A DNA stretch of 64,000 nucleotides from Siphlonurus alternatus. Taxonomy: Eukaryota > Arthropoda > Insecta > Ephemeroptera > Siphlonuridae. Below, piece after piece: positions 19,999 to 56,915 of this stretch. Where the stretch lies: assembly GCA_949825025.1 (NCBI GenBank), contig OX463784.1:16806124-16870123 (forward strand), read 5' to 3'. The notes beneath the pieces were generated by a model. That model had not been told where the DNA came from. It worked only from the letters and a program-made list of their open reading frames with translations, and searched no databases. The translations under genes and the position numbers were made by a program. Positions within the stretch are counted from its first letter, which is position 1. Each line of letters starts with the position of its first letter.

Positions 19999-20077
19999 CT
20001 GGAAAAAAGTTGAGATTTTTATTAATGTCTAATGGCTTCATGAATCTTGTCTCTTTATTGAAATATAATTTTATAGC

Positions 20078-21767: not shown

Positions 21768-21788
21768 CCCACGTCTAAATCTGGACTA
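21768..21788 (+). repeat. left terminal inverted repeat of the giant transposon
   Basis: 21 bases beginning CCCACGTCTAAATC, preceded by TA at 21766-21767. Perfect inverted match to 44655-44675. Confidence 0.9.
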
Positions 21789-24700
21789 GTCTGAGCTGAT
21801 TAAGGTAGTTCAAATCAGTTCATGCAGTTCAAATGGGCTAATATTCTGGACTGTTTTGAACAGCGAAGCTCAGATCAGTTCAAAACAGTTTTTAACTATT
21901 TTGAGCTGTTTCCTGCTCAAAATTGTTGCAGTTCAATGCAGTTTGAATTAGTTCATATCAGCTCATAACCTTTCTGCAGCTCAAAGTAGTTTCGGCTAGC
22001 TCAAACTAGTCCTGTAGTTCAGGACAGACCACCGCAGCTCAGACAGTCCAGTTTAGTTCAAACCAGTTCAGCGGCAGCCCAATGCAGCTCAGACAGTCCA
22101 GTCTAGTCCAAATTAGTTTATTGAAGCTCAGACAGTCCACTGCAGCTCAGACAGCCCCGTCTAGTTCAAATTAGTCCATTTAAGCTCAGACGGCCACTGT
22201 AGTCCAGGACAGTCCACCGCAGCTCAGACAATCCAGTTTAGTTCAAACCAGTTCAGCGGCAGTCCAATGCAGTTCAGACAGTCCAGTCTAGTTCAAATTA
22301 GTCCATTGATGCTCAGACAGTACACTGCAGTCCAGAACAGTCCACTGCAGCTCAGACAGTCCCGTTTGGTTCAAATTAGTCCATTTAAGCTCAGACGGCC
22401 ACTGTAGTCCAGGACAGTCCAACGCAGTTCAGACAGCCCTGTTTAGATCAAACCAGTTCAGCGGCAGTCCACTGTAGCTCAGACAGTCCCGTCTAGTTCA
22501 AATTAGTCCATTTAAGCTCAGACGGCCACTGTGGTCCAGGACAGTCCACCGCAGCTCAGACAGTCCAGTTTAGCTCAAATTAGTCCATTGAAGCTCAGAC
22601 AGTTCAGTCTGGTTCAAATTAGTCAGGGGCGATCGGTCCATAGATGCGAAGAATGCACTGCATGACCAACACAGATGGGAATGATGGGATTTTTTTTTAT
22701 TGTCTTTTGGTGCTCCAAGCATATAATTTTCATTAGTTTGAATTTATAATTTTGAATAAAATCCCGCTGATCTTATTCTCGCTTGTCTTCGTATTTTTTC
22801 GCGATTTAAGACTGCGGCCCGAGTGATCGCAGTCATCACTACGTCACTAGAACCGGATCTAGCCAATAGAAAAGGCGCAAAATGAGATGGTGGGTGGGGT
22901 GGGCTATTGTAAAAATAATAGCTGGTGAAGCGCTGTATTCAGAGCCTCCTCAACCAATCAAAATCAGATGACGAGAAACTTTGATATTCATATTCAAAAA
23001 TATTTAATATTTTAATAAATAAATAAGCATGTTACTCTTTTAAAATAAAAATATCAATTATGAAATTACCACATTTATTCTAATTTTTAAATTACCTAGT
23101 CTGTAGTCTTATAGTCTCTAGTCTGATTTTTTTGATAGAAAAAATATTCTTTGCAAGCTAGCGCCATATATATGCTGTGTTGCAAAAACGAACTACTTAG
23201 TAGTTAGTAAATTTCGCAAGCTAGTACGGAAGCGCACACGTCTGGTTCTGTTCAGTGATGCCTGCGATGTATTTTGCTTGTGTTATGCGTGTACTGTCTA
23301 GGGAGTTTCTTTAAACTGTGTGAAATATACCTAATATAATAAGTTGACAAATTTATTGATAATTTACCAAAAAGAGCGTCGTCTATATATGAAATTTTAT
23401 TTTTAGTAAGTTTGTTTTACATTGACATATATATGGTAGAATAAAAATTATACTTATTATAATATAATTTAGGAGCAACGGAAAATGAGAAATAAGACTT
23501 TATAATTTGCACCGTTGATTAAAAAGAATGAAAAATATATACATTTAAAAACATTGAAATTAGTAAATTAACTTTTTTTTTTTAGAATACGGCAAAAATA
23601 TTAAAGAAACAAAAACATCATCGATGGTATATATAGCTTCGGTTATAAAAAAAAAATCAAAGTTTTCATTGATTTTTAATAAAATAATACTGGATTGATA
23701 ATTTTAGGAATCATATAAAACTTTGAATCATGTTTCTGGAGTGTTAATTTTGAACTTCAAAATTTATTTGCCACGCCCCTTTTTTAGAAAAAATCGCGCC
23801 TGCGGCGGGCTGTACGGGGGGCTCGGCCCCTCGGACCCCCCTTTGGCATTTTATTCTCGTCGTTTTCAATGCGCATGACTATGTAGTAAGGTCACCGATC
23901 GCCACTGAAATTAGTCCTTTGAAGCTCAGACAGTCCACTGCAGCTCAGACAGTCCCGTCTAGTTCAAATAAGTCATTTAAGCTCAGACGGCCACTGTTGT
24001 CCAGGACAGTCCACCGCAGCTCAGACAGTCCAGTTTAGCTCAAACCAGTTCAGCGGCAGTCCAATGCAGCTCAGAGAGTCCAGTATAGTTCAAATTAGTC
24101 CATTGATGTTCAGACAGTACACTGCAGTCCACCGCAGCTCAGACATACCAGTTTAGCTCAAATTAGTCCATTAAAGTTCAGACAGTCCACCGCAGCTCAA
24201 ACAGTCCAGTCTAGTTCAAATTAGTCCATTGAAGCTCAGACAGTCCAGTCTACTTCAAATGAGTTCATTGAAGCTCAGACTGTCCACTGCTGTCCAAGAC
24301 AGTCCAATGCAGTTCAGACAGTCCAGTCTAGTTCAAATTGATACATTGAAGCTCAGACAGTCCACTGCAGTCCAGGACAGTCCACCGCAGCTCAGACAGT
24401 CCAGTCAAGTTCAAATGAGTTAATTGAAGTTCAGACAGTCCACTGCAGTCCAGGACAGTCCACCGCGGCTCAGACAGTCCAGTCTAGTTCAAATTAGTCC
24501 ATTGACGCTCAGACAGTCCACTGCAGCTCAGACAGTCCAGTTTAGTTCAAATTAGTCCATTGAAGTTCAGATAGTCCATTGAAGTTCAGATAGTCCACTG
24601 CAGTCCAGGACAGTCCACCGCTGCTCAGACAGTCCAGTCAAGTTCAAATTAGTCCATTGACGCTCAGACAGTCCACTGCAGTCAAGGACAGTCCACCGCA

Positions 24701-25700
24701 GCTCAGACAGTCCAGTCTAGTTCAAATTAGTCCATTGACGCTCAGACAGTCCACTGCAGTCCAGGACTGTCCACCGCAGCTCAGACAGTCCAGTCTAGTT
24801 CAAATTAGTCCATTGAAGCTCAGACAGTCCACCGCAGCTCAGACAGTCCAGTCTAGTTCAAATTAGTCCATTGACGCTCAGACAGTCCACTGCAGTCCAG
24901 GACAGTCCACCGCAGCTCAGACAGTCCAGTCTAGTTCAAATAAGTCATTTAAGCTCAGACGGCCACTGCAGTCCAGGACAGTCCAGTCTAGTTCAAATTA
25001 GGCCATTGAAGTTCAGATAGTCCACTGCAGTCCAGGACGGTCCAACGCAGCTCAGACAGTCCAGTCAAGTTCAAATTAGTCCATTGACGCTCAGACAGTC
25101 CACTGCAGTCAAGGACAGTCCACCGCAGCTCAGACAGTCCAGTCTAGTTCAAATTAGTCCATTGACGCTCAGACAGTCCACTGCAGTCCAGGACTGTCCA
25201 CCGCAGCTCAGACAGTCCAGTCTAGTTCAAATTAGTCCATTGAACTTCAGACAGTCAACTGCCTGCAGTCCAGGACAGTCCACCGCAGTTCAGACAGTCC
25301 AGTCAAGTTCAAATGAGTTAATTGAAGCTCAGACAGTCCACTGCAGTCCAGGACAGTCCACCGCAGCTCAGAAAGTCCAGTTTAGTTCAAACCAGTTCAG
25401 CGGCAGTCCATGGACTCAACTGCGCGCAGCCCAGGACAGTCCACTGCAGCTCAGACAGTTCACTCTAGCTCAAAAGAGTTTAAGGCATTATATAATATTA
25501 ATAATCATTAATAGTTATTTTAGCAATCAATAATACTTTGTCCAGGGCAGTTCGCCACAGCTCGAAATAGTCTATAGCCTTGTTAAAAGATGTACATTGA
25601 TATCCTGCCTTACCGCAGCTCAGAACAGTTCATAATCTAAATCAAACAAGTCAACACGTTATACGGCTGTATTGAAGTCCACCATAGTTCAGAATAATCC
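21780..25700 (+). repeat. left subterminal tandem array (78 bp unit, AGTCCA-rich)
   Basis: Tandem units contain CTCAGACAGTCCACTGCAGT, CAGGACAGTCCACCGCAG and TAGTTCAAATTAGTCCATTG. Successive copies at 24661 and 24739 are 78 bases apart. AGTCCA occurs several times per unit. Units diverge toward both edges. The array is interrupted at 22624-23907 by a hAT-like element. The right-hand array is the same unit in inverted orientation. In plant CACTA elements, subterminal repeats of this kind are the binding sites of an element-encoded protein; that role here is inferred. Confidence 0.9.
22624..23907. mobile_element. hAT-like non-autonomous element, 1284 bp, 8 bp target duplication
   Basis: Ends CAGGGGCGATCGGT and ACCGATCGCCACTG match at 13 of 14 positions as inverted repeats. 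The flanks are an exact 8 bp direct repeat AAATTAGT (22616-22623 and 23908-23915), part of the array unit. 8 bp duplications with CAGGG-type ends are typical of hAT. No transposase frame is visible, so it is presumably mobilised in trans. Confidence 0.88.
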
Positions 25701-26248
25701 AATTATAAGCCTTGAAATGTGCTATGTACATAATTAAATGTACATTTAATATTTTTAGTGAGAAGTTAAATGGAAAGAAAAATTAAAAAAAAAATGTATA
25801 TAGTTTAATTCATACTCACATTTATTTGATAGAAATTAAAAAAAATATGTACAGCTGGAACATACAAAGTGGATACAAAAATAATATAACTATACAAATA
25901 TATTTTACTTTCACAACATCATGATTCAATTCAACAGGTGAGACATTCCATTGCAATATACTTAATTTTCTTTTATTTGAAACAGGCATCTATATAATTA
26001 TATCAATATATTTATGAAATATTAAGATTTGTTTTTAAATTCAAGAGAATGCACTTCATTTATTAATTAATATTATATACAGTATAAAATTGGGGGAAAA
26101 ACCGTAATGCAGAAATCTTGATGTGTTAATGAACATGCAACTTAGGTTTAAACATTTCATATTTATGATTTCATGTTTTAATTTTTTTCATTTTAGAGTA
26201 CCTAACAGAAAAAATTCAGTTATCAGTTACTATTTTCTAAAAAAAATT
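25701..26248. other. AT-rich spacer inside the giant transposon
   Basis: Between the left array and the foldback at 26249. No open frame or repeat arms recognised. Confidence 0.45.
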
Positions 26249-26672
26249 CAAGTAGACCTCCATAACAAACCAAAATTCAAAAAATTCTATCTCAAATAAG
26301 TTTGCCAGAAAAAAACAAGCCAAATTCAGAATGAATGCGTCGCTTAACACGGGCCTTACCTGACAAAGACCCTCGAATATCTCCTAAAAATACACCGTCA
26401 GGTGGTAAGGAAAAAATGTAGTGATGTTCTATGAACCAAGCTTTAACCAAAAACCGAATAAATTTTTTTCGCTCAAATCCGTTTTTCCATAAAAAAATAT
26501 CGGTATATTTTTTTCATACCAGCTAACGGTGTACTTTTTTTTTTTTTAAATATTTGAGGGTCTTTGTCAGGTAAGACCCCATGTTAAACGATGACTCTGA
26601 CTTTGTAATTTTTTTCGGGCAAAACTACGTGAGATAGAATTTTTTGGATTTCGGTTTGATATGCAGGACCAC
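26249..26672. repeat. foldback MITE downstream of the transposase gene
   Basis: Arms contain CAAAAAATTCTATCTCA at the left and its complement TGAGATAGAATTTTTTGG at the right, with inner arms CCTGACAAAGACCCTCGAATA and complement. It resembles 29687-30200, which ends in the similar AAAAAATTCCATCT motif. Confidence 0.75.
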
Positions 26673-27099
26673 TTCAGCCATTTTTATAAAATAATAACTC
26701 AACCTTTCTTTTCTGATAAGAACTCTACTTTAAAAATTATGTTGAAGTTATTAGTGCACTAATAAACAGTCACAATCCTCCGCCTTTTAATTAAGTTTCA
26801 GCAGATAATGTTTGAAACATACACCGAACGAAATTCGGTAACTGATGATGTCAGGTGCATTCAGAGCAAAATATATATGCATTATGATAAAAGCTCTGAA
26901 AAAACTTCACGACATTGCTGCAAATTTGCTCGTTGAGCTTTTCAAACATTTTCTGCTGCTGGAATTTTTTCGTGGAAAGAATATTTTTGTTTTTTCACTT
27001 TTTTTTTTTTTTCGCACTAAAATGTTTATCAAAATTCAAAATACATAGTAAAATTAAAAAGTGGAAACTACTACTACTTTTTTAGGTCAGAGACACAAA

Positions 27100-30000
27100 C
27101 TATTGCACTTCACACTTATTTGCAGTTGTACATACAAATATTTCATCATGAATTTCTAGATAGATACATTTTTCTACAATCTCTGAAATTGGTAGAGACT
27201 CGTAATTATTTGTTTTGGTTGCAGTAAAGATGTGATCCATGCTAAATGGCTCAATACTATTTTCAGGAAATCCTTGAAATTCAAAGTTTTCAGTGTGAAG
27301 AATTTGCACATAAATAGAGATTTGAGGAACTGCATCACAGTCCATGGCCTGAGCAATTTTTTCAATTATACAGAAAGAACCGTTTCTCAGCTTAACACAA
27401 GAGTCCATATTTCTAGTGTGCATTTGGCTAAAGGCACTCCTATACACTACACCATTTATTATAACCTTAGGATGGACAAGAGAATTTCGGAATTGAGGAT
27501 CTACTTTTCCTTTACCATACACTTTAGGTTCAATTTGTAATGCCGCACTACTGTGTTTCACAGCGTTCATACAAAACTCACTTATTTTTTCATTTGTAGT
27601 GTTATATGTAATATATGAAGGCATATCTTGTAATTTTAATAATCTTTCTACAATTTGATTAATCACACCTTTACAGCCAGTGCAAAAATTTTTGATGCTA
27701 CCAATCTTAGATTCATATGGAAATGCTCCTGTGCACCACAATGGACCAGACCTAACAACATTAATTGGAAGGTGTGTCATAGAGTGAACATTGTATGTCA
27801 TACACTTCCTTCCGTATAATGTTTGCACACCCCATACAAATGTTAACAACAAACCTTCAGCATCATTTAAATTATCATGTGATACTTCTTCTTGGTTTAA
27901 AAGAAAGAGAGCCTTGGCAAAGAGAGCCCAATGTGCAAGATACAAAGGAGGCATAACATTTTTCAGTACAGGTATTGACAAATACATGAACCAATACTTC
28001 CACTCACTGGCTTTCCACAGCCTGCGATCCGCAAAATTTCGTGGGCGTCTGGAGTCTTGTAAATATGGTAGTCTAATATTTTTGAGACTGTCATTTATCA
28101 GTTTTATTTTTGCAGGACTTCCAATACTGAAGGGTTTGTTGGCAGCTGCATCAATCCATAAAACGCATGTAAAATACTTTGACAACCCAAGACAGGCAGA
28201 GTGCATGTATTCTGCAGTAAAGGACGACATCATTTTTATTCCAGGAACTACACTGAGAAATGACTTTCCTTTAACTCCATTTACTCTCGTACCTGTCTCA
28301 TCAGCTGCAATTGCGTCACGCTCCCATTCAGAATCTGTTCTGTCTCTTGGAAGCTGATCATACATTTCGTAACGATTGTAACTTCTACCTACTGCGTCAT
28401 TTGGATGATGACACTCATTACAACCATATTTTCCGTTGAATTGTACGCAGTTTTGCAGCTTAGGTCGAGCTATTGTATCTGCAACCCAGCAAAGAGGAAA
28501 AAACTTGGTGTTTATTTTCTCACCACCTGCTGATCTCCAGTTAACACCAGTGTCGGCTAAAAAATGTATCCATTCAAGAAAAGGTTTATAAAATATGGGC
28601 ATTATAGGTTCTTCCCTTCCAAACCAAATACCTGCCAGGATCACATTTTTAAACCTGATGAGAGCAGGCAAGCAGTTTAAAGATATCATCATTACCCACA
28701 TTGAATTTTTACTATTGGCATGAACAGGAGCTCCGTCAGAGAAATTATTGTAAGTGCAAATATTAGGACCAAACTTTTGACGTAATTCTTTATGTAACTC
28801 TCCATCGTGTATATCTTTCAGATTAGGACCTGGTGATTCTTGCTCTGGTTTAAAATGTTCACAAATGCCTTTTCTTTCTAAAGTTTTTCTAATTTGATCT
28901 TGAAGGTTTGGAATTGCAAAATAATTATTCGACTGATGACTCAATTTTATCATATTTTGGCAAGATTCACAGAACAATTCTTTTCTTCTATTTGTTTTCT
29001 CAAGTTTTCCAAGGAATTCTTTACAGTCACGACAATACAAATAGTATGACAAATTTGATGTAGATTTTTCAAGTAATTTCTTAACTAAATACATTGTATC
29101 AGGAAACTCGTTCCGTCCAATTAATAAATTTAACATAATGAACAAGTCTAAAATCATTAAATCAGGAATATGATATTTAAAAGACAAAGATAGTAACATA
29201 CAAATTGCATCCATTACAGTACAACCACCTTCACAAACATTTCGTGCACAATTGGGTAAACCAAAATCAAAATTTTCATGTATTGATTCTGAACCAGACT
29301 CAGAATTATTGTCAACGTTTTCTTCTTCTTCATCATCTTCTTCATTAGAATTTTCATCACTTGAAGTATCAAAAAAATCATCACTATCAATTTCATCACT
29401 TACATATAATGTTGGCCGTTCATCACGATCTGATCTAGCATCTGCCAATTCTTCTACATAAATATCAGAATCACTTTCTGATAATTCAGCTAGTTGTGGC
29501 TCCCTTGAAGTGGAAGCTCTTGCATTTGGCCCTCTTGATGTTGCAGCCTGCCCCTTTTCAGTGTCAAATTGAAGACAACGTGTAGCAAGCAGCGCATTCT
29601 CACGGACCTGAAATGAAACTGTACGTTATTGATATGAATTACATAGAGTGAGCGATTTTATATTTTTGTAATATTTTATTATCTTAAACTATTTTAACCT
29701 GCCTTCTATTGAGAAATGAAAACCAAAAAATTCCATCTTAAATAGCTTCACCAAAAACAATTCCCAAATTTGGTGTTTCGGAGGCCTTTAACATGCATCC
29801 TTAAGGAACAGAAAACAACTTTTTACACCAACTTCATCTGAACTATGGTACCAATTAAAAAATACTTACGTAATCTATGATGAATTCTTCAATGGATTGT
29901 CAAATAAAAAAAAAATTACGCAGCTGTTTTTCCGAAAAAAAAAGTAAATAAATTTTTGGGGGTCAATTCCAGTAAGGATTTTCAAGATTTTTTCAGGAAA

Positions 30001-32428
30001 AACGGCTCCGTACGTATTTTTTAATTAGTACCATAGTTCAGACGAGGTTAGATTAAGAAGCTGTTTTCTGTTCCATAAAGATGCATGTTAAAAGCCTCTG
30101 AAACACCAACTTTGGAAAGTTTTGGTAGTAAAAGCTATTTGAGATGGAATTTTTTGGTTTCATATCTCAATAGTAGAGGGCGAGTTTAACTATTTTTACA
30201 AAATAAAATTTTCCAAAAATTGAAACCACTCACTCTACATTAAAGCAAAGCAATTTTGAAAAATAAAATAACTAACGTATTTATTTTAAATTCTGTGGTA
30301 ATGGAGGTAACGTTTTCTTTTTTAACGCAGAATATTATGATGATAATTTGCTACAACCACCAAGATCTGCACAAACGGTAGCTCCAGGCAGGCTCACGCT
30401 CAGATCCTTCAGCGCTCATCGTCGCGACCCTCCTACTCACCAGGGCTTCGCAGCGAGCAGCCGAAGCCACTCGCTTTCTGCCACCGGCGGCCTGGTATAG
30501 GCACAACGCTTCAGCGCCATCCATTTTCAGGGTTAGTTGCTAGTATATATTATTATATTTTTACTAGCTCACTAGTACCGGTATCTTAGTATTCACTAGT
30601 ATACATTTTCTTAAACTGAATCACTCACTAATTGTTAAACATTAATTCTACCAAATTGTGCTACTCTGAAATTTTTCATATTTTTTTGAGACCCGGAACT
30701 ATTTTTAAATAAATATTGAAAGTTCTATAAGTTAAGTTGGCACCCCTGAAGCCTTAATAAAAAGAATAGGATCGGGGTGCGTGGGCGCACTTTCAATAAT
30801 TATTTAAAAATAGTTCCGGGTTTCAAAAAAAATCTGAAAAAATCGGAGTAGCATAATTTGGTACTCTCTATTCATTTCTGCAATAAGAAAACTTTCATGT
30901 AGGTTGTCCATTACTCACAAAATTTGAAACCCCGAACCTCCAAAACCCTAACTTGAGCGTTTCGTGGGGTCTTCCGGAACAAGGCCAGCCGCAACCTTGC
31001 AATCCATCACGGCATTTATCTGCGACCAAGGGAAATATGGAAACCTGAGCTAGGATGGACGCTAAAGCTTTTGTTAAATAATCGGAAGTGGAAAAGTGCC
31101 AAGCAATGGTAGATTTGAGTGAAAGTGTTACAAATGAACTTGGAGTCATTAAGAAGAAAAAAAAAATGTGATTACCTCTAAAATGCTGCTCTCGGATGAG
31201 GAACTACGGTCTGCGTCAAAATCAGAGTCGTGACCTTGTGTTGGCTCCTGAAAGATATGCATATGTTATTTTTTGTGTAAAGATGGATTCACATACTATA
31301 AAACTGTTATGGCATGCCGTATGAAAATTAAGATCCCTTTGGTTTTCTTCAAGAGCTAGTTCATCTACGGAACAATTTTCGAGTACAAGAAGGATCCTCA
31401 AATTGTAAATGTGAACATATTAATCATATGTGCAATGTTTTGCAGGGCACAAAAATTTTGTCCTAAAAAAATCTCTCCATAATTTTAATTGTATGTTTCT
31501 TGTTTACAGTATCTTATTATTGCACTCTATCTACTATTATATTTTATCTGCTCTCAGCTTTTTAGTGATTATACATGTAATTGCAGAAATTACATACATC
31601 AAGTCAAGGTCCTTCTGCTCTATACAACAATACGTTATTCCGGTTATTCGTAAACGTTTATAAACAAAACATTATTGTGTAATACGTCTGTTTGGTGAAG
31701 CAAAAAATAGTGTACATTTTGTTGATTTATGCATATATGTACTAGCTGCACTGCATATGAGACAGCATAATATGCATTAATATGTTCATATATTCGTAAA
31801 TAACATGTCAAATCCAAAACCGGCACTTTTTCAAAAATCATTTGCCTCGGCACAAAATTTTTTTTCACTCAAAAGGAGATGCTCTGATATTGAGCTAAAT
31901 TTATGATAAACTAATAACTGCTACATTCCATTAAACATGTTTATAATATTTTTGAATTTTTAAAAACACCAAATATGTGAGATAAAAATTGTTAAAAGTG
32001 CGAATTGTCTTAAGGAGGTCCGAAACAGAGCTACGTGGTGTATGTACATGGATATTTTAATTATTACAGTACAGTATATGCATATAACAATTAAGAATGC
32101 TGATGATGTATGCATATATTATGTATGTACTTTCATACATACTTTTTTTTTCCCCTCCAAACTATGTATTTTTTTCAACCAATTATTAATTATTATTACA
32201 GTATTGTTCAGTTTAACACAATATTCAGTCTATGCATTTTGTATGCATACAGAGCTGAAATAATTATACCTCTGCATCTCCTCGTTTGCTGGTGTCAGTG
32301 GTGTCTCTGGTACCTTCTTCTTCATCTCCTTTACGAAGTCTTTTCTTAGCACGACGGCGACTTCGTGTTCTTTCAGGTGTTTGAGAAGCATCAACGTGTA
32401 ACTGTTTTTTATAAAATTTTCTTTCCAT
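27100..32428 (-). CDS. Tnp2/CACTA-like transposase of the giant transposon
   Basis: Exons 32270-32428 (53 codons, Lys/Arg-rich start), 31176-31247 (24 codons, acidic/Ser), possibly 30441-30539 (33 codons), and 27100-29607 (835 codons plus stop). All are joined in phase 0 at GT-AG sites, giving 912 or 945 residues. The last exon starts with an acidic stretch and then two CxxC knuckles (about 29034-28960). The conserved transposase core follows: SDGAPVHANS (28740), a GCNECH cysteine block (about 28425), AEYMHSACLGLSKYF (28218), and the terminal block NVHSMTHLP...SGPLWCTGAFPYES (27792-27709). This order matches the Tnp2-like transposases of the CACTA/EnSpm superfamily, which cut at the terminal repeats using a DDE-type core. 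The exact catalytic residues cannot be fixed without alignment. The frame is intact, so it may still be functional. It is divergently paired with the BEN gene. Confidence 0.85.
29687..30200. repeat. foldback MITE in a transposase-gene intron
   Basis: Left arm TCTATTGAGAAATGAAAACC then AAAAAATTCCATCT, inverted at the right as GATGGAATTTTTTGGTTTC and CTCAATAGTAGA. Inner arms GTGTTTCGGAGGC and complement. It is related to the foldback at 26249. Confidence 0.8.
30441..30539 (-). CDS. possible additional or alternative exon of the transposase gene
   Basis: A 33-codon phase-0 segment ending at a GTGAGT donor and followed perfectly in phase by the large exon at 29607. An internal ATG at 30524 could make it an alternative first exon (28 codons). 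The acceptor (ACTAG at 30540) lacks a good pyrimidine tract, so first-exon use may be more likely. It is GC-richer than its surroundings. Confidence 0.5.
30663..30915. repeat. MITE family 1 copy inside the giant transposon
   Basis: Arms GCTACTCTGAAATTTTTCA and GAAAAAATCGGAGTAGC, ending TTTCATGTAGGTTGTCCATT. It sits in a transposase-gene intron, so family 1 was still moving after the giant element existed. Confidence 0.8.
31248..32269. other. first intron of the transposase gene
   Basis: AT-rich intron with clusters of TGCATATAT/ATGTATGCAT words. No paired arms or open frame supported. Confidence 0.45.
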
Positions 32429-32943
32429 TTTAAAAAATTAACTGAAGAAAAATATATGAGACGTAATAATCATAATTAAAAGGCACCGTGGAAGTTACAA
32501 ATTTAATTATTTTCTATATTTAAAGCATACAAAGAAGAAAAACTCTCGTAGATCGACGTTCTTGACCAAAGCAAAACAAAAACAGCTGATTTCTGCTATC
32601 CGTAAAAGACTTGAATTGACTTTAATGGTACAAGGTTTATTTAAAGAAATTGTGAAATATTCGTTATATAGCATATTAATTAAATATGAAAAATTTATAA
32701 AAGTTTACTGCATTGATGAGTTTCAAAAATTTGATAATATAGGAGTGGTACTCTTTTGTCTTTTGAAACAAACACCACAATTGACCGGAAGTGACAAAGT
32801 GTGCAAAGTCGCCATTCGCCATTTTTGCTTCCATTCACCATTTTTCACCTAGCCGTTCACGAGTGACAAGCGTGGCTTTCGATAGTTTTCTGTGTTCTGC
32901 GTTGCCTGTTGCCATTTTTGTCTTATAAATATTGCTTTGTAAA
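32429..32943. promoter_or_regulatory. shared bidirectional promoter region of the transposon genes
   Basis: 515 bp separate the divergent start codons of the transposase (32428, minus) and the BEN gene (32944, plus). The region contains the GC-richer stretch CAAAGTCGCCATTCGCCATT near 32805. No canonical TATA box was picked out. Co-regulation of the two genes is inferred from the arrangement. Confidence 0.5.
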
Positions 32944-33551
32944 ATGTACTTTAGAGTAGTTACTTTAGAAGGAGGAAATTTTATAGTTAACGAAGATGCT
33001 TTTACAAAATTTCCTGGAGTGGGAAATATAAAACATGACACTTACTATTTTGTGAAGATAAATAACAAAATCAAGAAGATAAGAGTTGCTGTCATGTCAG
33101 GTAATTAATAAAATAAACATACCTTACAAGATGAATGATTTTTAAGACTGTTAAATGTGTACATTGAACGTGTAGTTTTATATGTATGCATACTGTATGA
33201 TATTGACTATTTTATTCATGCAGAGCATACAAACATGTTTCCCGCGTTCCACAAAATAGCTGGCACATATATATGGCATGCATTCTATATTATAAATGGC
33301 AGCCATTGCCAATTTTTTACCACAAATTCCCGCTTCTAAAAGGAAAAAACCTGGCAAAAACCTCGTATGCATTATATGTACACCTAACATTTTTGTAAAG
33401 ATCAAGGACGGACGAATTAATTGACTAAATAAATACATTTGCAAAAAAAAAAAAATTTATAAAAATATTTTAATATTACGATCTCGTTTTTAATGAGCGT
33501 GATTCATTTTTTTTTTTGTTACATGCTGAATAGGCGACTTGTCCCTTGTCC

Positions 33552-33720
33552 CAGGCGTGGATCCAGAAAAAAAGATCAGGGGGGGGGGGGGGGGCTGCAC
33601 CATAAGGCCAATGTTAAAAAAATTGGGAGTGGGGGAAAAGCCTATATTGCCCATGTTAAATCCAAAATTTCGAGGGGGGGGGGGGGGCTGTCAGCCCCCC
33701 CCTCCCTGGATCCGCGCCTG
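33552..33720. mobile_element. small hAT-type MITE in intron 1 of the BEN gene
   Basis: Ends CAGGCGTGGATCCAG and CTGGATCCGCGCCTG, flanked by CCTTGTCC (33544-33551) and ACTTGTCC (33721-33728), a 7 of 8 match for an 8 bp duplication. The interior holds two long G-runs. Confidence 0.8.
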
Positions 33721-33737
33721 ACTTGTCCTTCCACTCT

Positions 33738-33999
33738 GAGTGCGTTTGAATTCACGGGCCAGCCCGGGCTGGGTAAAATGGCGGTGACCTTGGTCACGTG
33801 GTATGAAACGACATAATTTTGTCATGGGCCAGTTCCCAGTCTGTCTGCTAGGTCTCAGTCGCACTGTCGAGTCGGCCCGCGTCACCCTGGGCCAGCCAGG
33901 AAGTGGCGTCATGAGAGGAGGAAAATGGCCGCCGGGCTGGCCCCACTTGACGACAAAAAAAGCTTCAGCCCGGGCTGGCCCGTGAATTCAAACGCACTC
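33738..33999. repeat. GC-rich MITE with 30+ bp inverted ends
   Basis: Starts GAGTGCGTTTGAATTCACGG and continues GCCAGCCCGGGCTG; the right end is the near-perfect reverse complement. It is much GC-richer than its surroundings. Confidence 0.85.
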
Positions 34000-34646
34000 A
34001 CTGATACTCGCCATCTGTGAGTGGCGCTGCAACTTGCAGTTGGCGCCTCATTTAAGTTGATTAATCACTTGACAGTATGATATCATGCTGTTCATGATCC
34101 ATCAATGGCTGCTCTGTGGTCAACCAAAATCGCTTGGCAGCATGGCGTCACACCAGCCGCGGTGGCCCGAGGTAGTTGTCTTTTACTCGCTAGTATTTGG
34201 AATTGAGAAGTGCTACGGTGAAAACAAATGTACTGAATCATACTAGAATAAATATACCACGTTTTGGCAGTGAAAAATGTCAACTTTTTATCTTCTTTCG
34301 TACCTAACTCGGTTCACAAAATTTTCCCCCCATCTTCTCAATGTATTGTTTTGTTTCTACATACTTTCACCGTAGACGAATTTGTAGCGCCACTCGCAGA
34401 TGGCGAGGATCATTGTAAGGACAAAGCAAGTCGCCTATTCCGATTCCTATTCCGACTAGTACAACCACGGACATTTTGTGCCGCCATGCTGCCAAGCGAT
34501 ACGCAAGCGATTGGTTGAAACACAGCGGCCATTATTTTGAAATGAAATTATGCTGCCAAGTGATTGCGTGATTGATCGACTTAAAAGAGGCGCAAACTGC
34601 AAGTTGCAAAAAGTTACAGCGCCATTCATAGATGGCGAGGATCAGT
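34000..34646. repeat. foldback repeat built from CGCCATCTGTGAGTGGCGCT arms
   Basis: Left arm ACTGATACTCGCCATCTGTG and right arm GATGGCGAGGATCAGTGTAA, with a third internal copy near 34385-34420. This suggests a nested or duplicated arm. It abuts the previous MITE. Confidence 0.65.
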
Positions 34647-35857
34647 GTAAGAGAGTGTGGCCTATATTGACTATATTCATTTTTTAATTGCATATTATAA
34701 CAACAGAAATTTCAATTTATATCATTTATTGCAAAACAGTACAATCATGATATCTTATTTAAATTCATTGTTATTTAATTTTACTATAAATGAACAAATA
34801 AAACTTTTTAAGGATGAATCTCAGTATATTGATATCTCATAATCATAGCGCCTGAATACAACAAGACTTACAGGGGACTTTGAACTCACCATCAATAGAC
34901 CGTAGCATACAAATTTTGAAGCGAATCTGTCTCATCAGTTTTGTGAAAACTGAGGTAGAATTTTAAGATTGACCGTATGGACGAAAACCGGAAATGGAGC
35001 TGTTGTAAGAAATCTGCAAGACTGAATTTGCTCAAACCATAAACGATTAAGTTTTAGAACATACTGTACTAGATTTTTTTAAAATTTATTTGATTTGATT
35101 CATTTGCAGGGAAATATTCTTTGACTCCAGCAATAACTGAAATTAATCATTAACGTAAATTTATTTTTCTGTACAGAAAAGAAAGCGGAATGTGACTACA
35201 AAAGCCCGAAAGGACTTCGCTCTAGATTGGCGCCAATTTCAAAGTCCCAGACGGACCCTGAACATGAGAGCTCCGATAACGACTCGGACCAACTGTTTGG
35301 CAAACGAAGCGTTCCAAATTCATTCCCCAGCTCTCAATCATTGAGTGGGGAACCCAGCCCGTCAAGAATGGTGAGACTAATTATAATATTCACCCACTTT
35401 TAATCACTCCCAAGATCTAGAAAATTCAAAATAGCATTATGAAACTTATATCGTCTCAGCAGTTTTAGTTCACCCCTTTTTGCTGCCTGCGGATTATGAC
35501 CATTTTATATAATGTTCTAAAAGGGTTAATGGAGGATGCATATAATATATGGGCTCAAGCTTTTCCTATCTGTTCTCTGTCCCTGGTCACAGGTTCTACT
35601 CTTGGCTAGGCAGGTTCTAGGTTGGAAAAGTATTAAAAATTATTCCCGTTATTACTCATTACCCCTGCATAAAATCACTCACCTTCTCCGTTTACCTCCC
35701 AAGTGATCAATTCCATATTCAACAAAAAGTGGCAGAAAGTTTACCTTTTTTTTTATTTTTCCCAGCACAAGAAACCCAAAAAAGATGTTAATTCAGGGTC
35801 TGAAACCATGGCAACTTCAAGTGTACCAGAAACCCAAGATGACGAGGAGTTTAATAT

Positions 35858-37318
35858 CTTCTTCTTCTTTTCTTATGCCCACGTTTTGGCGTTTAAGCCA
35901 TTTTACTTCTAGCAAGCCAATAGAGATAGGATTCCTGCTCTTCCCGCTTCATGTTGCCAGGCAACAAGTCAAGTTCCGCTTTTAATGCAGAGCATCTAAA
36001 TAGATGCCCTCTGTCTTGGGGTTCTTTTTTACATAATTTACAAATGTCACTATCTTGGATTTTAAATCTCTTCTGGTAGCATCCAAGGTAGTCATGGCCT
36101 GTGTCTAATCTAAATTTAGCAGTGTCTGTGAGTCTATTGTAAATATGAGTTTTAGCTAATTTAAATATAAGGTCTCCCCATACTTTATCACTTGCTTGTT
36201 TTTTCCAGTCTAGATCAACTTTTTGTTTCACTGCACTATTGATATGAGCTTGAATTGAGTAAATGGAAATATTTGTTGTTGGCTGTGTCATCTTACTGCC
36301 CATCTTGGCTAAATAGTCTGCTTGTTCGTTACCATGAATACTACAATGGGCTGGTATCCACTGTAGAACTATTGTAATACTATTGTCTTGATGATTTTGA
36401 ATTAGCTTTTTACATTCTGCCACTCTTTGGTCTTGAGACTCTGGAGAGGCTATTGCTTGAATTGCTGCAGTAGAGTCTGAAAGTAATACTATTTTACTAT
36501 ATTTAGTTTGGCTATTTATTTTTTCCAGGGCTATTTTGATAGCTTGAACCTCTCCATCAAAGTTGCTGCCATGCTTGCTTGTTGGGGCAGACTCTTGAAA
36601 AAGCTTGCAATATACACCGGCCCCTGCATTACCAACTCCGGGTGTTGCTGATCCATCTGTATAGATGTGAAGCCAGTCCGGGAGAGGATATTTCCGGTGT
36701 ATTTCCTTATTTGCAAGTTGCCTAAGTTCCTCTTCAAGGAGAGATTTTTTGTTACTGATACCTTCTATTTTAATACTATGCTGGACGTTCACCGTCGCCA
36801 CACTAAGATAATTTTCTGATATTTTTTCACGTTTTCTTTGTAAGATGGCCGGATTGAGATATTCTTTTTTTAGTTTTGTTGTCTTTTCTATAAAAGTTTC
36901 TTGAGTTTTCATAGAACTTGGTTGGTATTGATTCCAATCCTCTTCTTCCAATCTTATTAATTTTTCATGTAATTTCATGGCTGCCTTATTTCTTCTTTCT
37001 TGTAAGGGTTCTATGTTGGTATTAATTTCCATAGCTGCAATAGGAGTTGATCTCACTGCTCCATTAATTATTCTGAGTGCCTGATTTTGCACTTTATCCA
37101 CTGCTGATGTTGATGCCTTCGTTGCAGTGACAAAAGGTTCGGTACCATACTCTAGCACAGGTCTAACATACGTCTTGTACGTTGTAGCTAGTGTTTCACG
37201 ATCCGCTCCCCATTTAACGCTAGCTGCCCTTTTCATTAGGGATAGTCTCTTTTTACCTTTGTCTGCATTTCTCTCCAAATGCACCTCACCACTCAGCCTT
37301 CTGTCCAGGGTTACTCCT
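35858..37318 (-). mobile_element. 5'-truncated non-LTR retrotransposon (RNase H-bearing clade) inside BEN exon 3
   Basis: Minus-strand open frame ending at 35893. It starts within the reverse transcriptase thumb (LGVTLDRRL, about 37316), continues through YVRPVLEYG, then an RNase H domain with its acidic residues in place (YTDGSA, FDGEVQAI, LLSDSTAA, HGNEQADYLAK), and ends with a CxxC...H...C knuckle (CKLCKKEPQDRGHLFRC). RNase H places it with the I/R1/LOA-like clades. It is flanked by an exact 10 bp duplication AGTTTAATAT (35848-35857 and 37319-37328), and the 3' end is a GAA-rich tail. The frame is still open, so the insertion is probably young. It is 5' truncated and cannot move by itself. 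Confidence 0.9.
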
Positions 37319-38046
37319 AGTTTAATATTGAAACCACTCAATTTGATGATCCTCAGGTTATATATATTTCTCTTTTTTTTCTCCCTTAAAAATGTTGGTA
37401 GTTTGGTTCGAATGATTTAAAAAAAAAAAATTGATTGTCGATAAAAAGTACTGTTTGAAATTAAACGAATGAATTCTATTTTTATTTTATAATTTTTATT
37501 TTTTTCAGAACGAGCAGCAGTCTAGTGTTATACAAGCTCAAATTAATAAAAAAAAAGATGCCCTAAACATTTCTATAACACCAAAAACTGGACTAGTTGT
37601 AGATGAGGAAACTCTAAAAGGTATTGCAAGTGGGGTCCGCGTTTTGGGAGAGCAATCAATACAAAATCACAAAGTATTGGTTAAATGCCAGGACTTATTG
37701 GAGAAAGCAGTAGAACATCTGGCTTACATGCGTGGCAGCTTTACGGAAGATAGAGCACATGCAAGCACAGGCCCAGGTAAATGTTTTTTAAAGGTGGATT
37801 TATGTATTTCATAGGACCATTTTTTATTTTAAATAATGCAGGTTCTCAAGGCTACTTTTTGCATATGGAATGATAAAAAAAAATATTAAAAAAAAGAAAG
37901 GAATACAATGGTTACAAGATTAAAAATTTAGAAAATATGTACTACAATTATATTCCCTATCTCTCCCAGTCCCCAACCGCCCATTCAAGTTTTCAATCCT
38001 TCTTTGTAACTACAATTCTATATTTCATTTCATGGAATGCATGTTA

Positions 38047-38442
38047 TTAAGGGTAAGATAACACGACACGAACAATCAATTGTTGTAGTCCCATTTGATT
38101 AACATACAAACCTTAGCAACCTCATAATAATTCTGAATTTTTTTTTTTTGAGACAGTTCTTGGCACTAAAAAAATATAGAGAAAATTTCAAAACAATCGG
38201 ACGATCCAATTTTTTTAAATGAATTTTTTAAATTTTCAGTATAGGGCTTTCCCATGGAGACCAAAACTAAAAAATTAATTTAAAAAAATTGGATCGTCCG
38301 ATTGTTTTGAAATTTTCTCCATATTTTTTTAATGCCAAGAACTGTCTCAAAAAAAATTCAGAATCATTATGAGGTTGCCAAGGTTTACATGTTAATCAAA
38401 TGGGACTACAACAATCGATTGTTCGTGTTATCTTACCCTTAA
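38047..38442. repeat. TTAA-flanked foldback MITE in BEN intron 4
   Basis: Starts TTAAGGGTAAGATAACACGA and ends TGTTATCTTACCCTTAA. The arms are long and nearly perfect (GGATCGTCCGATTGTTTTG and complement inside). It shares its tip with the elements at 53263 and 56514. Confidence 0.9.
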
Positions 38443-39604
38443 TTAAAAGTATTAATACCTTATGACATTGTAATATTGAAATTTTGCTACTTTACAGGCT
38501 TCCTTGACACTTCCCAGACGTCTCAACAGTCCAGCAGCGCAAGTTTTGAATTGGCTCCCAGCGGACCAATAGTTCTTGCAGTGAAGAATGGCAAGGTAAT
38601 TTGTTATTGCCATATTATATTGCTTTGTTTATCCTTTTTTTTTTTATTAATGGTGGTTCTGTATTTTTAAGCGCCATCTTGGCTTTGGAATATGGATGAA
38701 TGAGTCCGCATACCAGTCAGTCCTGAATGAAGCACTGACAGGAAAAAACCAGCCAGGCAAATATATTAAGGCCTTGGCTTTAAAGGTGCTTGGACTCAAA
38801 GTCATGGCTACCACTTCTGTAAGTGGCACCGCAAGCCGCTGCAAGAATCGTTCTCTTATAGAACCAGTGAAACCAAAATGTTTGGTTAAGGTGAACAACG
38901 TGCTCCTAATGAACGTTCTGCAAGGTATTTGTTTTTGTTTATCTTCAGAGTTTTTTTGTGTGGAAAATTGCCATGATAAGCCACCATGTCAGGAAATTTG
39001 AATTTTGCTAGTATTTTTACTGCCCCCATTTTGAGATCATGTTTTTTAAATATTAAATTTTTTTTTCTTCTCATACGAGGAAAAAAAAGTAATAATAATT
39101 TGAGCATTGATATCATTGTTTTAGATGATAATTAGGAATATGCAAAAATAGCTGACTTGAGGCCTCTTTAAATAATTTTTTTTTTTTTAGTAAATACTGC
39201 ATCACTGTCAGCTCTTGGCTACTTTGTGTTAATGAGTGAATTCGTTTCTCTGGGTTCGTTGTCAACTGATACCCATTTTAATAGATTGTTGTTGCTGCCC
39301 GACACTCAACTTTTTTTCTCTCCTTTGTGTTTCAGAGGCGTATCAAGCCTACCTAGCCAAAACTGTGCCTAAGAAAGAGGTGAAGGAAATCCTGGGCTCC
39401 ATGACGAGAAGCATCGGAAACAAGATGAGCTGGGCTAAAACCGAGCTAAAAAATCACCCAGAATATAATGGCAAGCCAACCAAGTTATATGTCATTGACG
39501 AGTCCGGAGAAAATGATGATGCCTTGCAGTTTGTGGAGGCAGCATACAACGAGGATGCAGACACGACAGAAGTGATTGAAGATAACAGTGAGTTAAGTGA
39601 TTAG

Positions 39605-40044
39605 AAGTGGATTCAGTGAGCATTTTGTTTCTCTCTGTACAGCAGCTCACAGACAAAGTGAAGTAACAGTAAATGTTTTAAACATGTGAGAATTTTGTAA
39701 ATGTCCAGTGCTTGTCACAAGGATTTTGTATGTAGAACCTCTGGATAGGATATTTCTATACCAATAGCATATGCTAGATTTGCCTCAGTAGCTCTAATAT
39801 TAGAGCTACTGAGGCAAATCTCCAACGTATCATGACAACCGAGTGCTAAATAAGCTGTATGATTGCGGACATTCAATTGGTTACTGTTTTAACCGCCACC
39901 CACTTTTTCCTCATGACTGTGCCTCACCAAAAAGAGCAGCACCATCACCTATCCACAGGTTAAATACAGAATAACAGAATCCTTGGCTTGTCACTGTAAA
40001 AGTTATTCCTCAAGGTTGAATCACATTTAGAAAGTCCCCTAAAT
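39605..40044 (+). other. 3' UTR and downstream region of the BEN gene, with a hairpin
   Basis: Non-coding sequence after the stop codon. It contains the perfect inverted repeat at 39776-39821 and no other recognisable feature. Confidence 0.5.
39776..39821. repeat. perfect 46 nt palindrome (23 bp arms, no loop)
   Basis: The arm AGATTTGCCTCAGTAGCTCT plus AAT is followed at once by its exact reverse complement. It lies 172 bases after the BEN stop codon, so it may be in the 3' UTR. Confidence 0.85.
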
Positions 40045-40336
40045 GACTTAATAGAGGCTTCAAGTCAGCTGATTTTTCGGTCTTCCTACCCGCTATACCA
40101 AATCTATGTTAAAAAGACGTGAATTCGTTTTTCACTAAGCATAAGATTTTTTAGGGAAATTTCCTTTACGGAACTTTTGTCCAAGCTGAAAAATATCAGT
40201 AGATAATTTAGATTTTTTACTTGATTTATAATCGAGAAAAGTTAAAAAAACTATGCTTCATTTTCAAGTACAAGATGTACCTTAGCGACAACAGTTGCGC
40301 AGCGACAGCGCACTCACTTGAAGCCTCTATACTTTC
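40045..40336. repeat. foldback MITE
   Basis: Ends GACTTAATAGAGGCTTCAAG and ACTTGAAGCCTCTATACTTTC. A related arm (CTTCAAGTCAGCTGATTTTG) occurs near 5265, in the sphingomyelinase gene. Confidence 0.7.
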
Positions 40337-40650
40337 ATAAAGGGGCCAAGTTTTAGGCTTTCTGGTGTCTTCAATATTTCAATTGACTGTGTGATTTCGT
40401 TCCTAAATGATGAGATTTTTAAGTCTATTTTCTTCCTTTTATTTAAAATAATAATATTAATCATAATTAAGAAGAAAACTTGTTAACTTTTCTAGTTATA
40501 TATACTAAGTCAATTATTTGTACTAAAAAGACTTAACAGGTAGATTTAATTAATAATTATTCTGTATTTCCTATCTTCAAAGATTTTAATAATTTTCTTA
40601 TGGGGAAGTACCACGCTCAATATGTTAAAATGAATCTTACACATGAAAGT

Positions 40651-41160
40651 GGGCTTACGGGGTGTATTTTTTTTACTGGCTCAATCAAAAGAGGAGGTCG
40701 AAAAATATCCCTCAGATTTTTTGCGATTTTTTTTAGCATTGCATCATACCTAATGTGGAGATTAAAAATGTCTTTTGACCTAGAGGCTCCATCCGCCACG
40801 CCAATGACGTCATTATATTCTTTGGGTCAAAAATATAATGCTTCTAAACAATCACGTTGCTATGGAAACAAATGATAATTTTTAATAAACAAGCAACAAT
40901 GCAATAATTTTTTACAAGTGTTACATAGTTGAACCAAAGAATGTAATGACGTCACAGGCATTACGGATAGAGCCTCCAGGTCAAGAGACATTTTTAAACT
41001 CCATCTTACTATCAGAACCAAAAAGGTGTGCCCCTGAATAGCATACAAGTTCCATAAGGGGTATGATGCAGTGCTAAAAAAAATCGCAAAAAAATCTAAG
41101 GGATATTTTTCGACCTCCTCTTTTGATTGAGTCAGTAAAAAAATTACACTCCGTAAGCCC
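40651..41160. repeat. foldback element related to 11441-12122
   Basis: Arms GGGCTTACGGGGTGTA and its complement TACACTCCGTAAGCCC, with inner arms TCAATCAAAAGAGGAGGTCG and complement. The minus strand has an open frame with QSKEEVEKY as at 11.5-12 kb. Confidence 0.75.
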
Positions 41161-41169
41161 ATTATGAAA

Positions 41170-41420
41170 CAAGTATAAAATATTCTCTCCATCCCCTATC
41201 AGTAGCAAAAATACCAGGTATACGAATTCTAGCTAGTTTTTTTGAGCAATGAATTTTTAAAGTTGACTACGTTGACATGGAGAATTTGAACGTCCATGTT
41301 AAAGTAGTCAGCTTTAAAAATTAATAACTTAAAAACTAGATTGAATTTGTATACCTCATATTTTTGCTACATTGAGGATGTAGAGGAGAACGTTTTAAAT
41401 TTTTTATCATAAATTTCATG
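41170..41420. repeat. decayed core of the TTAA foldback family
   Basis: Contains ATCAGTAGCAAAAATACCAG, ATTTTTAAAGTTGACTACG and the complementary arm, matching the centre of 53263-53615. The terminal TTAA tips are missing. Confidence 0.6.
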
Positions 41421-41728
41421 CGTGGATTTTTTTTTTTTTTTTTTTAATATTGAGCCTTCTATATAAGATCTGAGACTAAATAGTAAAGTTCTTTGAGAGT
41501 TTTTTAATTGTTCTCACTCTCGTAGACAGTATTTCGTTACAATTTTTCTTACATCATTAAATAATATGGAAAACAGATAAATAGTCTGAGATATTTTGTT
41601 GTGTTTATGCTGAATTTGCATAGTAATTGTTTCAGAATTCATTACAGATATTTGAATAAAAATACATACTGTCAGTTATTTGATTTTTAGAGTAAGTAAA
41701 ACTTGATACTTGTATGATTATTGAAATT

Positions 41729-41942
41729 AAGGCCGGTCGCAGACAGGATCGCATGATTTCGCTATTTCTATGATCGTAAGCTTACGATTGTACGTTTCTC
41801 ATATAGAACCGGTTCTAAAATTTCTTATCATACGACAGCATACAATACAAAGCTGTGTGCGCGCGCACAGCTGATCGCATAGGTTCTTATTTTTTTCATC
41901 CTACGCTGCGAAACCATGCGATTCTGTGTGCGACCGGCCTAA
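41729..41942. repeat. MITE with GGCCGGTCGCA ends
   Basis: Ends AAGGCCGGTCGCAGACAG and GTGTGCGACCGGCCTAAA. The inner sequence includes GAACCGGTTC and GCGCGCGCAC. Related to 9298-9525. Confidence 0.75.
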
Positions 41943-42491
41943 AGCTAAACTATGTATTTTTACAACAGGTTACTTTTTCTGACGGGCAATAAGTAAAAAA
42001 CTATATATTGAAACAAGCCCTTTGTAATGTAACCTGTAAGTGTTCAGAGGGTTCAAAAAAATGTGAATTTTTTTTTTTTATAACATAACTTGAGATCCTG
42101 TTGCCATAAATGCAATGAACAAATTTCATGAAGGTTGTCCTCCAATGATGATAGTTTAATAATCATAAGTATATTTATAATATAATCATATATAATCATA
42201 TCATATAATCATAACTACTAAAGTTCTAACATAATAATGTATACTATGTTTTATAACTGTCACTTTTTATTTGCAGTGCAAATATTAACAGAATCAGAAC
42301 GTTTAAATAAATAGCTTTTATTGCAATATTTTATTTTATTGTAGGGTATAAAAACCTGCATGTCTTTACTGGATTTAAGTAACAATGTAAGGATTATTCA
42401 TTACATTTCATGGTAAATTATCATATTTATGATAAATTTATTTATATTTTTTACTAAATGCAACTGCTATATAGAAATAAATTGGACAAGT

Positions 42492-43149
<658 letters not shown>

Positions 43150-44654
43150 GTAATAAACTTATGTTTCTTTTTTAGTCTGAATGGACTATCTTGAGCATCA
43201 AGAAATTGCCTTGGACTGTTCTGAGCAGCAACAAGCTGCCCTGGAAAACCGTACTACTGCTCTCTTGCATTCTTGTTTGTGCTAGACTGGACTGTAGTGA
43301 GCTCCGGTAAGCTGCTCTGGACTATCGTATTGTGCCCTGGACTATTCTGAGCTGCATTGAACATCCCTGGACTGGACTGTAATACGGCTGTTACATCCCT
43401 GAGTAGACTCGTTTGAACTAGACTGAAATGTTTTGAGATGTAGTAAACTGCCCTGGACTGCAATAATGCTTCTAGATATATTATAAGGAATGGACTTGTT
43501 TAAACTAGGCTGGACTAGTCTGAGCTGCGATGGACTGCCCTGAACTGCAGTACAGCTGCTAAAATGTATTGGACGCGTTTAAACTAGGCTGGACTAGTCT
43601 GAGCTGTGATGGACAGTCCTGGACTGCAGTACAGCAGCTATAATGTATTGGACTCTTTTGATCTAGGCTGGACTATTCTGAGCTTCGATGGACTGCCCTG
43701 GACTGCAGTACAGCTGCTATAATGTATTGGACGCGTTTGAACTAGGCTGGACTATTCTGAACTAGAATGGACTGCCCTGGACTGCAGTACAGCTGCTACA
43801 GTACATTGGACGCGTTTGAACTAGGCTGGACTAGTCTGAGCTGTGATGGACTGCCCTGGACTGCAGTACAGCTGCTAAAATGTATTGGACGCGTTTGAAC
43901 TAGGCTGGACTATTCTGAGCTTCGATGGACTGCCCTGGACTGCAGTACAGCTGCTATAATGTATTGGACGCGTTTGAACTAGGCTGGACTATTCTGAACT
44001 AGAATGGACTGCCCTGGACTGCAGTACAGCTGCTACAGTACATTGGACGCGTTTGAACTAGGCTGGACTAGTCTGAGCTGTGATGGACTGCCCTGGACTG
44101 CAGTACAGCTGCTATAATGTATTGGACGCGTTTGAACTAGGCTGGACTATTCTGAACTAGAATGGACTGCCCTGGACTGCAGTACAGCTGCTACAGTACA
44201 TTGGACGCGTTTGAACTAGGCTGGACTAGTCTGAGCTGTGATGGACTGCCCTGGACTGCAGTACAGCTGCTAAAATGTATTGGACGCGTTTGAACTAGGC
44301 TGGACTATTCTGAACTAGAATGGACTGCCCTGGACTGCAGTACAGCTGCTACAGTACATTGGACTCTTTTGAGCTAGGCTGGACTGTTCTGAGCTAGAAT
44401 GGACTGTTGCATGTATGGCAGCAATGAACTGGTTTGAGCTATAATGGACTGCCTGAGTATCAGCGTAAAATAGCTAGTTTGAGCTAGGCTGGACTGTTCT
44501 GAGCTGTATTGTCTGGACTGCCATGAGCTATTTACAGCTGTGGCCAGTTCAAAATTGGTAGCTCAAACAGTTCAAAACCGGCCAATTTTATACAGTTTAC
44601 AACTATCTGAACTAGCATAATTTTGAACTGATCTGGACTGCTGCAGTTCAGATG
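43150..44654 (-). repeat. right subterminal tandem array (79 bp unit, TGGACT-rich)
   Basis: The marker GGACGCG recurs with exactly 79 bp spacing (43731, 43810, 43889, 43968, 44047, 44126, 44205, 44284). Units contain TTTGAACTAGGCTGGACTA and TGGACTGCCCTGGACTGCAG. Two unit variants differ in CTGAGCT versus CTGAACT. The reverse complement aligns with the left array unit, so the two arrays form a long imperfect subterminal inverted repeat. Confidence 0.92.
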
Positions 44655-44675
44655 TAGTCCAGATTTAGACGTGGG
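44655..44675 (-). repeat. right terminal inverted repeat of the giant transposon
   Basis: Ends GATTTAGACGTGGG, an exact 21 bp complement of 21768-21788, followed by TA at 44676-44677 and then the tip of the interrupted MITE (GGTTGTCCATT). Confidence 0.9.
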
Positions 44676-44677
44676 TA

Positions 44678-45285
44678 GGTTGTCCATTAGTGAAGAAGTG
44701 ATTCTTATTTCAATTTTTTTATATCCATGTACAATAGTCAAATGAAAATTTAGCAGCAAGGCACTGTCTAATAACACCATAGGTTTGCATGTATGAAGTG
44801 CCTTTAAAAATTATTTTGATACCAATGATGTTAAAAACTAAAAATTACATGAAGAGTGCCATTGTTGATTGAATCAGTTTTTATACCTCACTACAAGCAA
44901 TAAGTTCAAATGACGGTAATTAATATTGTATCCGATTCATTGACAACAGATATTATGAGACGGCGTCAACAAATCCATATTAAACACCGTCATGCGTATA
45001 CTAAATAATATATTTGAAACTGGCATTTTAATGTTATAAATCTATACTTAATTTCATGTGTTTAAATAACAGCTAGCGGCTGTGGAGGCCTATTTAAGGA
45101 CAGTCGAGGTAATATAATAATGCTGTTGACTTACCCTATAAGGGATCTATAAGGGATGTGGCGTCATGTTACATTATGCAAGTAAATAAATAATTTTCTT
45201 AAAATACTGTAATAATAATTATAAATTTTCAATTCACATGCTAGATTGATTTAGCACACCTCCGTGACACATATCTTTGACTCAC
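44678..45285. other. intron 2 remnant of zinc-finger copy A
   Basis: The first bases are the displaced tip of MITE family 1. The rest is AT-rich with no arms or frames that I can support. Confidence 0.45.

Positions 45286-56881: not shown

Positions 56882-56915
<34 letters not shown>

Follow-up and report, generated by a model that had tools for sequence, protein, structure and literature searches.

The 64,000-nucleotide stretch of Siphlonurus alternatus DNA analyzed here (contig OX463784.1, positions 16,806,124 to 16,870,123 of the forward strand; hereafter, the window) contains an element of 22.9 kb, spanning positions 21768-44675 of the window, in which a predicted transposase gene and a second predicted gene lie between 2 arrays of short repeats and a pair of terminal inverted repeats (TIRs). 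The features of the element are as follows.

21768-21788, plus strand: left TIR, CCCACGTCTAAATCTGGACTA, beginning CCCACG, preceded by TA
21789-22623, plus strand: outer part of the left array, AGYYCA motif mostly forward
23908-25480, plus strand: inner part of the left array, AGYYCA motif forward, ~10 bp apart
27100-29607, minus strand: transposase exon 3 (predicted, gene model), holding the catalytic residues
31176-31247, minus strand: transposase exon 2 (predicted, gene model)
32270-32428, minus strand: transposase exon 1 (predicted, gene model)
32429-32943, no strand assigned: gap of 515 bp between the 2 start codons, presumably a divergent promoter region
32944-33100, plus strand: second gene, exon 1 (predicted, gene model)
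35177-35370, plus strand: second gene, exon 2 (predicted, gene model)
35766-35854, plus strand: possible extra exon of the second gene, running from 35766 into a non-long-terminal-repeat (non-LTR) fragment, with an undefined end; skipping it keeps the frame
37509-37776, plus strand: second gene, exon (predicted, gene model)
38498-38595, plus strand: second gene, exon (predicted, gene model)
38672-38924, plus strand: second gene, exon (predicted, gene model) that encodes the BEN-like domain core (profile scoring)
39336-39604, plus strand: second gene, last exon, with stop (gene model)
43170-44654, minus strand: right array, 79-bp unit, AGYYCA motif on the minus strand
44655-44675, minus strand: right TIR, exact reverse complement of the left one, with TA just after it

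The 21-bp TIR had no further match in the window when up to 5 substitutions were allowed. The window contains 17 overlapping pairs of perfectly inverted 21-mers with more than 10 kb between them, and 20 dinucleotide-block shuffles contained none; the element ends are among the 10 of these pairs that were listed, together with other dispersed repeats. The flanking sequence reads ...ATGTATGTA on the left and TAGGTTGTC... on the right, with TA at both borders and, since TA is palindromic, this single copy fits a 2-bp target duplication or a 23-bp inverted repeat alike. The ends (CCC..GGG) begin with CCC, as do those of TRC elements, and differ from the 5'-CA..TG-3' of most CMC/CMCT elements; they are not the CACTA ends of plant CACTA/EnSpm elements, and the flanks, GTA and TAG, do not contain the 3-bp target duplication of plant CACTA elements. 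With the flanks fused around one TA as a model of the empty site, no junction-spanning match was found except 35 columns at 63056-63086 (85.7%, E 9e-5), which we did not accept as an empty site.

Directly inside both TIRs lie the arrays, for which Tandem Repeats Finder gave the spans 22012-22624 and 24056-25472 (left) and 43491-44406 (right); several periods were reported, among them 78 bp for the left arrays and 79 bp for the right one. Aligned in inverted orientation, the left and right arrays agree at ~72-76% among the matches listed (80 of 201 in the self-comparison). Beneath the 78/79-bp repeats is a shorter unit, the core motif AGYYCA, which recurs about every 10 bp: of the 182 intervals between neighboring motifs in the left end, 98 measure 10 bp and a further 33 measure 9 bp, and of the 79 in the right end, 51 measure 10 bp. 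The left end (21768-25500) holds 183 forward and 9 reverse motifs and the right end (43150-44675) 5 forward and 80 reverse, compared with 15 forward and 17 reverse in the inner 17,649 bp and 34 forward and 26 reverse in the 41,092 bp outside the element, an enrichment in the arrays of roughly 50-fold over background. The left outer, left inner and right parts contain 56, 127, and 80 motifs, against means of 1.0, 2.0, and 1.6 and maxima of 6, 8, and 6 when each part was shuffled 200 times base by base; the borders used for this count reach ~20 bp into the nested insert from either side. Both orientations of the motif occur in the outermost ~135 bp of either end, and the TIR itself terminates in a reverse-orientation motif. 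Such subterminal motif repeats are also a hallmark of plant CACTA/EnSpm elements. Among the 7 periods tried, a phase measure at 9.75 bp reached 0.75 and 0.59 in the 2 left parts. The ratio of observed to expected CpG is 0.34 at 23891-25480 and 0.35 at 43170-44654, compared with 0.90 in the window outside the element.

The initial annotation had proposed a single DNA transposon of 22.9 kb with perfect 21-bp inverted ends, TA flanks, inverted 78/79-bp arrays at both ends, and 2 divergent multi-exon genes. The ends are exact and unique in the window, TA is found on both sides, and, together with the inverted arrays and the genes between them, these features support a single transposon. The span is likewise as proposed, but its length includes later nested insertions, of which 2 clear ones account for ~2.8 kb; the arrays are present and inverted, but their basic unit is ~10 bp and not 78/79 bp. 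The 2 genes are borne out by in-frame gene models with head-to-head starts, in which all joins keep the frame, donors start with GT, and acceptors end with AG.

The 3 predicted transposase exons join in a single open frame of 912 residues. With residue numbers that follow the open reading frame (ORF) 27100-29625, the protein contains a D297, D383, E638 triad, C402/C405, and H614/H618. A protein search returned 2 relatives (E 7.4e-65 and 1.2e-58; identity 33% and 29%), P0001 and P0002 in the Pfam test, and a re-search with the profile of the 3 sequences returned the same 2 only. The D-D-E triad is invariant in the three-sequence alignment, as are the C(2)C and the H(3)H that lie between its second D and its E; this is the signature of CMC/CMCT enzymes and supports the CACTA-superfamily-like transposase of the initial annotation. 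The N-terminal CxxC pairs 198/201 and 219/222 are also invariant with both relatives. D297 and D383 are 86 residues apart and are accompanied by C402xxC405, in agreement with the TRC pattern of aspartates ~80 residues apart and a CXXC. The strict printed patterns of TRC box I and box A are absent from the transposase and both relatives; a relaxed box A, E-x-M-H-x3-L-G, is present in the transposase and P0002 and not in P0001. Transposase_21 of Pfam is matched by P0001 (9.9e-5, under the cut-off) and P0002 (2.3e-11), and the only Pfam match of the transposase itself is DUF4218 (E 0.03, under the cut-off). The predicted structure model has a mean pLDDT (predicted local distance difference test score) of 29.8. 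TA target sites are also typical of Tc1/mariner and CCC ends of piggyBac; both were rejected, the catalytic signature being of the CMC kind.

The 6 predicted exons of the second gene encode 412 residues. A profile of 5 BEN domains of solved structure gave the candidate domain 11.5 bits, a score reached by none of 2000 shuffles, this profile and the restriction to the domain having been adopted after a whole-protein test with 4 BENs had failed. The same 11.5 bits were obtained for BANP when it was scored by the other 4 BENs. Among 616 sequences ranked by the five-BEN profile (window ORFs of at least 40 residues, the 2 transposase relatives, and the candidate in 2 forms), the 3 forms of the candidate came first with 11.5, 10.3, and 9.2 bits, followed by a sequence with 6.8. 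The hhalign score was 26.8 against a maximum of 19.1 in 400 shuffles (0/400), and the pairwise score of the domain with BEND6 was 50, as high in 1 of 2000 shuffles. The predicted structure model of this exon has a mean pLDDT of 53.5. These comparisons of sequence profiles suggest that the BEN-like domain is probably real.

Comparison with described elements places the transposon as a variant within the known animal TRC group, the CCC-ended branch of the CACTA group, because CCC ends with a 2-bp repeat are the published animal TRC signature (PMC1636069, here and below as given in the accessible parts of that paper); we regard it as very probably a TRC-type transposon of the CACTA superfamily, judging by its ends and enzyme. 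The initial annotation knew of no described family with this combination; the family is nevertheless a known one, as animal TRC elements combine CCC ends and a 2-bp repeat with an enzyme of the Transposase_21 type (PMC1636069; PMC4298943, accessible parts). In the former source, these have TIRs starting with CCC, a Transposase_21 domain, 2 aspartates separated by ~80 residues, and, in the third box, a CXXC, with box I found in most TRC elements but not in all. The element resembles SmTRC1 and the TRC elements of Schistosoma, Tribolium, and Aedes in that (i) the ends begin with CCC; (ii) the enzyme has a CXXC and, judging by its relatives, is probably of their Transposase_21 type, and the genes are spliced; (iii) the TA on both sides of this one copy fits their 2-bp direct repeats, found in 7 of 14 SmTRC1 copies; and (iv) SmTRC1 likewise has a tandem-repeat region and a second protein (PMC1636069). 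It differs from them in that (i) they are 4.5, 5.2, and 9.2 kb long, with different TIR sequences; (ii) SmTRC1 makes its further proteins by splicing of one shared transcription unit, and the accessible text does not describe them as BEN; and (iii) that text mentions no arrays of a 10-bp motif at the ends of TRC elements (PMC1636069). What the element adds to the known TRC group is the pair of AGYYCA end arrays together with a second gene whose product has a BEN-like domain.

Spongebob, or EnSpm-4N1_HM, of Hydra and insects also starts with CCC, has a 2-bp duplication, and is filed as TRC, but its TIR is CCCAGCCAACATTGAC, its consensus is 5.8 kb long, and its transposase is unreadable from stops or frameshifts (PMC4298943). 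The plant CACTA elements Spm/En, Tam1, and Tgmt* have a Tnp2-type transposase, subterminal motif repeats, and a separate DNA-binding protein, and Tgmt*, at 20.5 kb and in an intron, is comparable to the present element (PMC2613891, accessible parts, here and below). By contrast, plant elements have CACTA ends, a 3-bp duplication, and one alternatively spliced gene, where the present element has CCC, TA flanks that fit a 2-bp duplication, and divergent genes; their motifs are 12-20 bp long and in tens of copies (28 in Tgmt*), compared with more than 260 copies here (PMC2613891). The fungal EnSpm-like ESTA elements have a TA duplication, which the TA flanks here would fit, and share the D-D-E, C(2)C, H(3-4)H residues, a likeness by description only, and those described in the accessible parts of the source encode a TET/JBP dioxygenase (PMC12730594). 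The exact TIR, the BEN-like exon, and the transposase profile had no match in viral contigs, and the last had none in prokaryote genome contigs either.

The best explanation of the whole, to which we give a probability of roughly 0.55, is a TRC-group element with a BEN-like partner protein at its end arrays. The transposase would cut at the CCC ends and insert at TA by cut and paste. The BEN-like protein would bind the AGYYCA motifs in both arms, where the ~10-bp spacing would put them on the same face of the helix, and when bound would bring the ends together for the transposase or regulate the element, a role parallel to that of TNPA in maize Spm. Spm needs both TNPA, which binds its subterminal repeats, and TNPD; accessory proteins and motifs vary among CACTA families (PMC2613891). 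A second protein together with dense end motifs suggests a similar division of labor, and by this analogy the BEN-like protein may be the array binder, although we put the odds slightly below even. More doubtful is the broader proposal of an animal CACTA lineage in which a BEN protein replaces the TNPA-type protein on motif arrays of up to ~2.4 kb per end, which might be the first transposon known with a BEN partner for end binding or silencing. CACTA elements have received far less study in animals than in plants. If the explanation is correct, an animal has the two-part CACTA design, with one catalytic protein and one for the subterminal motifs, but uses another DNA-binding fold for the latter, and mobile DNA joins chromatin factors and DNA viruses as a carrier of BEN domains; the AGYYCA arrays offer a concrete candidate site.

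Several results weigh against this explanation. In the right arm the long-range phase measure at 9.75 bp is low (0.17), and strict helical phasing at both ends was rejected on this value. The four-BEN profile found a best stretch of 3.8 bits in the whole second protein, and at least 8 of 2000 shuffles scored 6.2 or more. Pairwise scores of the domain with NACC1 and BANP were ordinary (1958/2000 and 896/2000 shuffles as high), and the summed pairwise BEN score ranked the domain ORF second of 202, behind a non-LTR ORF. With E values of up to 10 allowed, the second protein matched no Pfam family, BEN included, and a search of 5.8 billion proteins gave it no homologue at E 0.001 or better; PDB returned no match and NCBIfam one stray match below the cut-off. 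Pfam gave no Transposase_21 for the transposase itself. The BEN protein of the initial annotation is moderately supported, by the profile score that exceeded 2000 of 2000 shuffles, and not by Pfam, NCBIfam, PDB, the 5.8-billion search, or the four-BEN test.

With the BEN identification only moderate, the arrays of a TRC element might instead be recognized by the transposase itself, for example through its invariant N-terminal CxxC/CxxC pairs, and the second gene might have a regulatory function or be a host gene that was captured, with no part in what happens at the ends. No pairing of a BEN protein with a CACTA/TRC transposon was found in the literature searched (open papers, in incomplete listings; Repbase was outside the search), which also favors this alternative; co-mentions of BEN, transposase, and CACTA concerned, in the accessible text, separate matters, and those of BEN, transposon, and TIR belonged to bacterial Tn3 work. 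We nevertheless regard it as the less likely reading, since in plant CACTA elements a separate protein handles the subterminal motifs (PMC2613891) and the second gene stands head to head with the transposase within one element. It is considerably less probable that the arrays are functionless tandem-repeat expansions and that only the outer ~200 bp matter: tandem arrays do self-expand, and the arms have different higher-order units of 78 and 79 bp, but both ends carry the same core motif, inverted, alike, and strongly enriched, and the motif is present in the TIR and the outermost ~135 bp too. That ends and genes are unrelated repeats brought together by chance is very improbable, although the element is known here from one copy: the ends are perfect and unique in the window, an array adjoins each of them on its inner side, and the enzyme is of a type published with CCC ends.

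The TRC-type element has itself received later insertions, which inflate its length; the clear and probable ones are as follows.

22624-23907, no strand assigned: nested hAT-like insertion of 1284 bp with an exact 8-bp duplication, AAATTAGT
35893-37416, minus strand: nested non-LTR retroelement fragment with an RNase H ORF
38051-38438, no strand assigned: probable nested palindromic repeat, flanked by TTAA
33552-33720: probable 169-bp repeat, flanks identical at 7 of 8 bases

The hAT-like insertion, which splits the left array, looks non-autonomous. Because later insertions split this array and perhaps cut an exon of the second gene, as the non-LTR fragment may have done, the copy may be no longer fully competent. 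The segments 26225-26699, 30649-30912, and 41161-41435 are palindromic or common to other parts of the window. At 33755-33982, a long inverted repeat surrounds CGGGCCAGCCCGGG; the equal 8-mers on its flanks were rejected as a target duplication, the 8-mer itself being a palindrome. Ten reading frames, 2 of them exons of the second gene, chosen from the 193 of at least 40 residues listed for 25400-43500, showed no family above the cut-off, and Rfam and tRNA scans gave no match.

The element has a ZAD-type exon (46019-46498) on one side and a zinc-finger exon (18490-20028) on the other, which have paralogues at 58024-58425 (63% amino acid identity) and 53883-55436 (70%), respectively. Because it separates 2 exons with paralogues elsewhere, the element is probably an intronic insertion in a ZAD/C2H2 zinc-finger gene. 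The 58024-58425 copy alone matched the Pfam family zf-AD, with an E of 0.02 that falls short of the cut-off. There appear to be 2 such paralogous genes on the minus strand, one comprising 18490-20028 and 45280-46498 and the other 53883-58425, which also share a middle match of 254 columns at 92%. Outside the right end of the element, 47278-48519 is a reverse-transcriptase retroelement fragment, with RVT_1 in 47998-48519.

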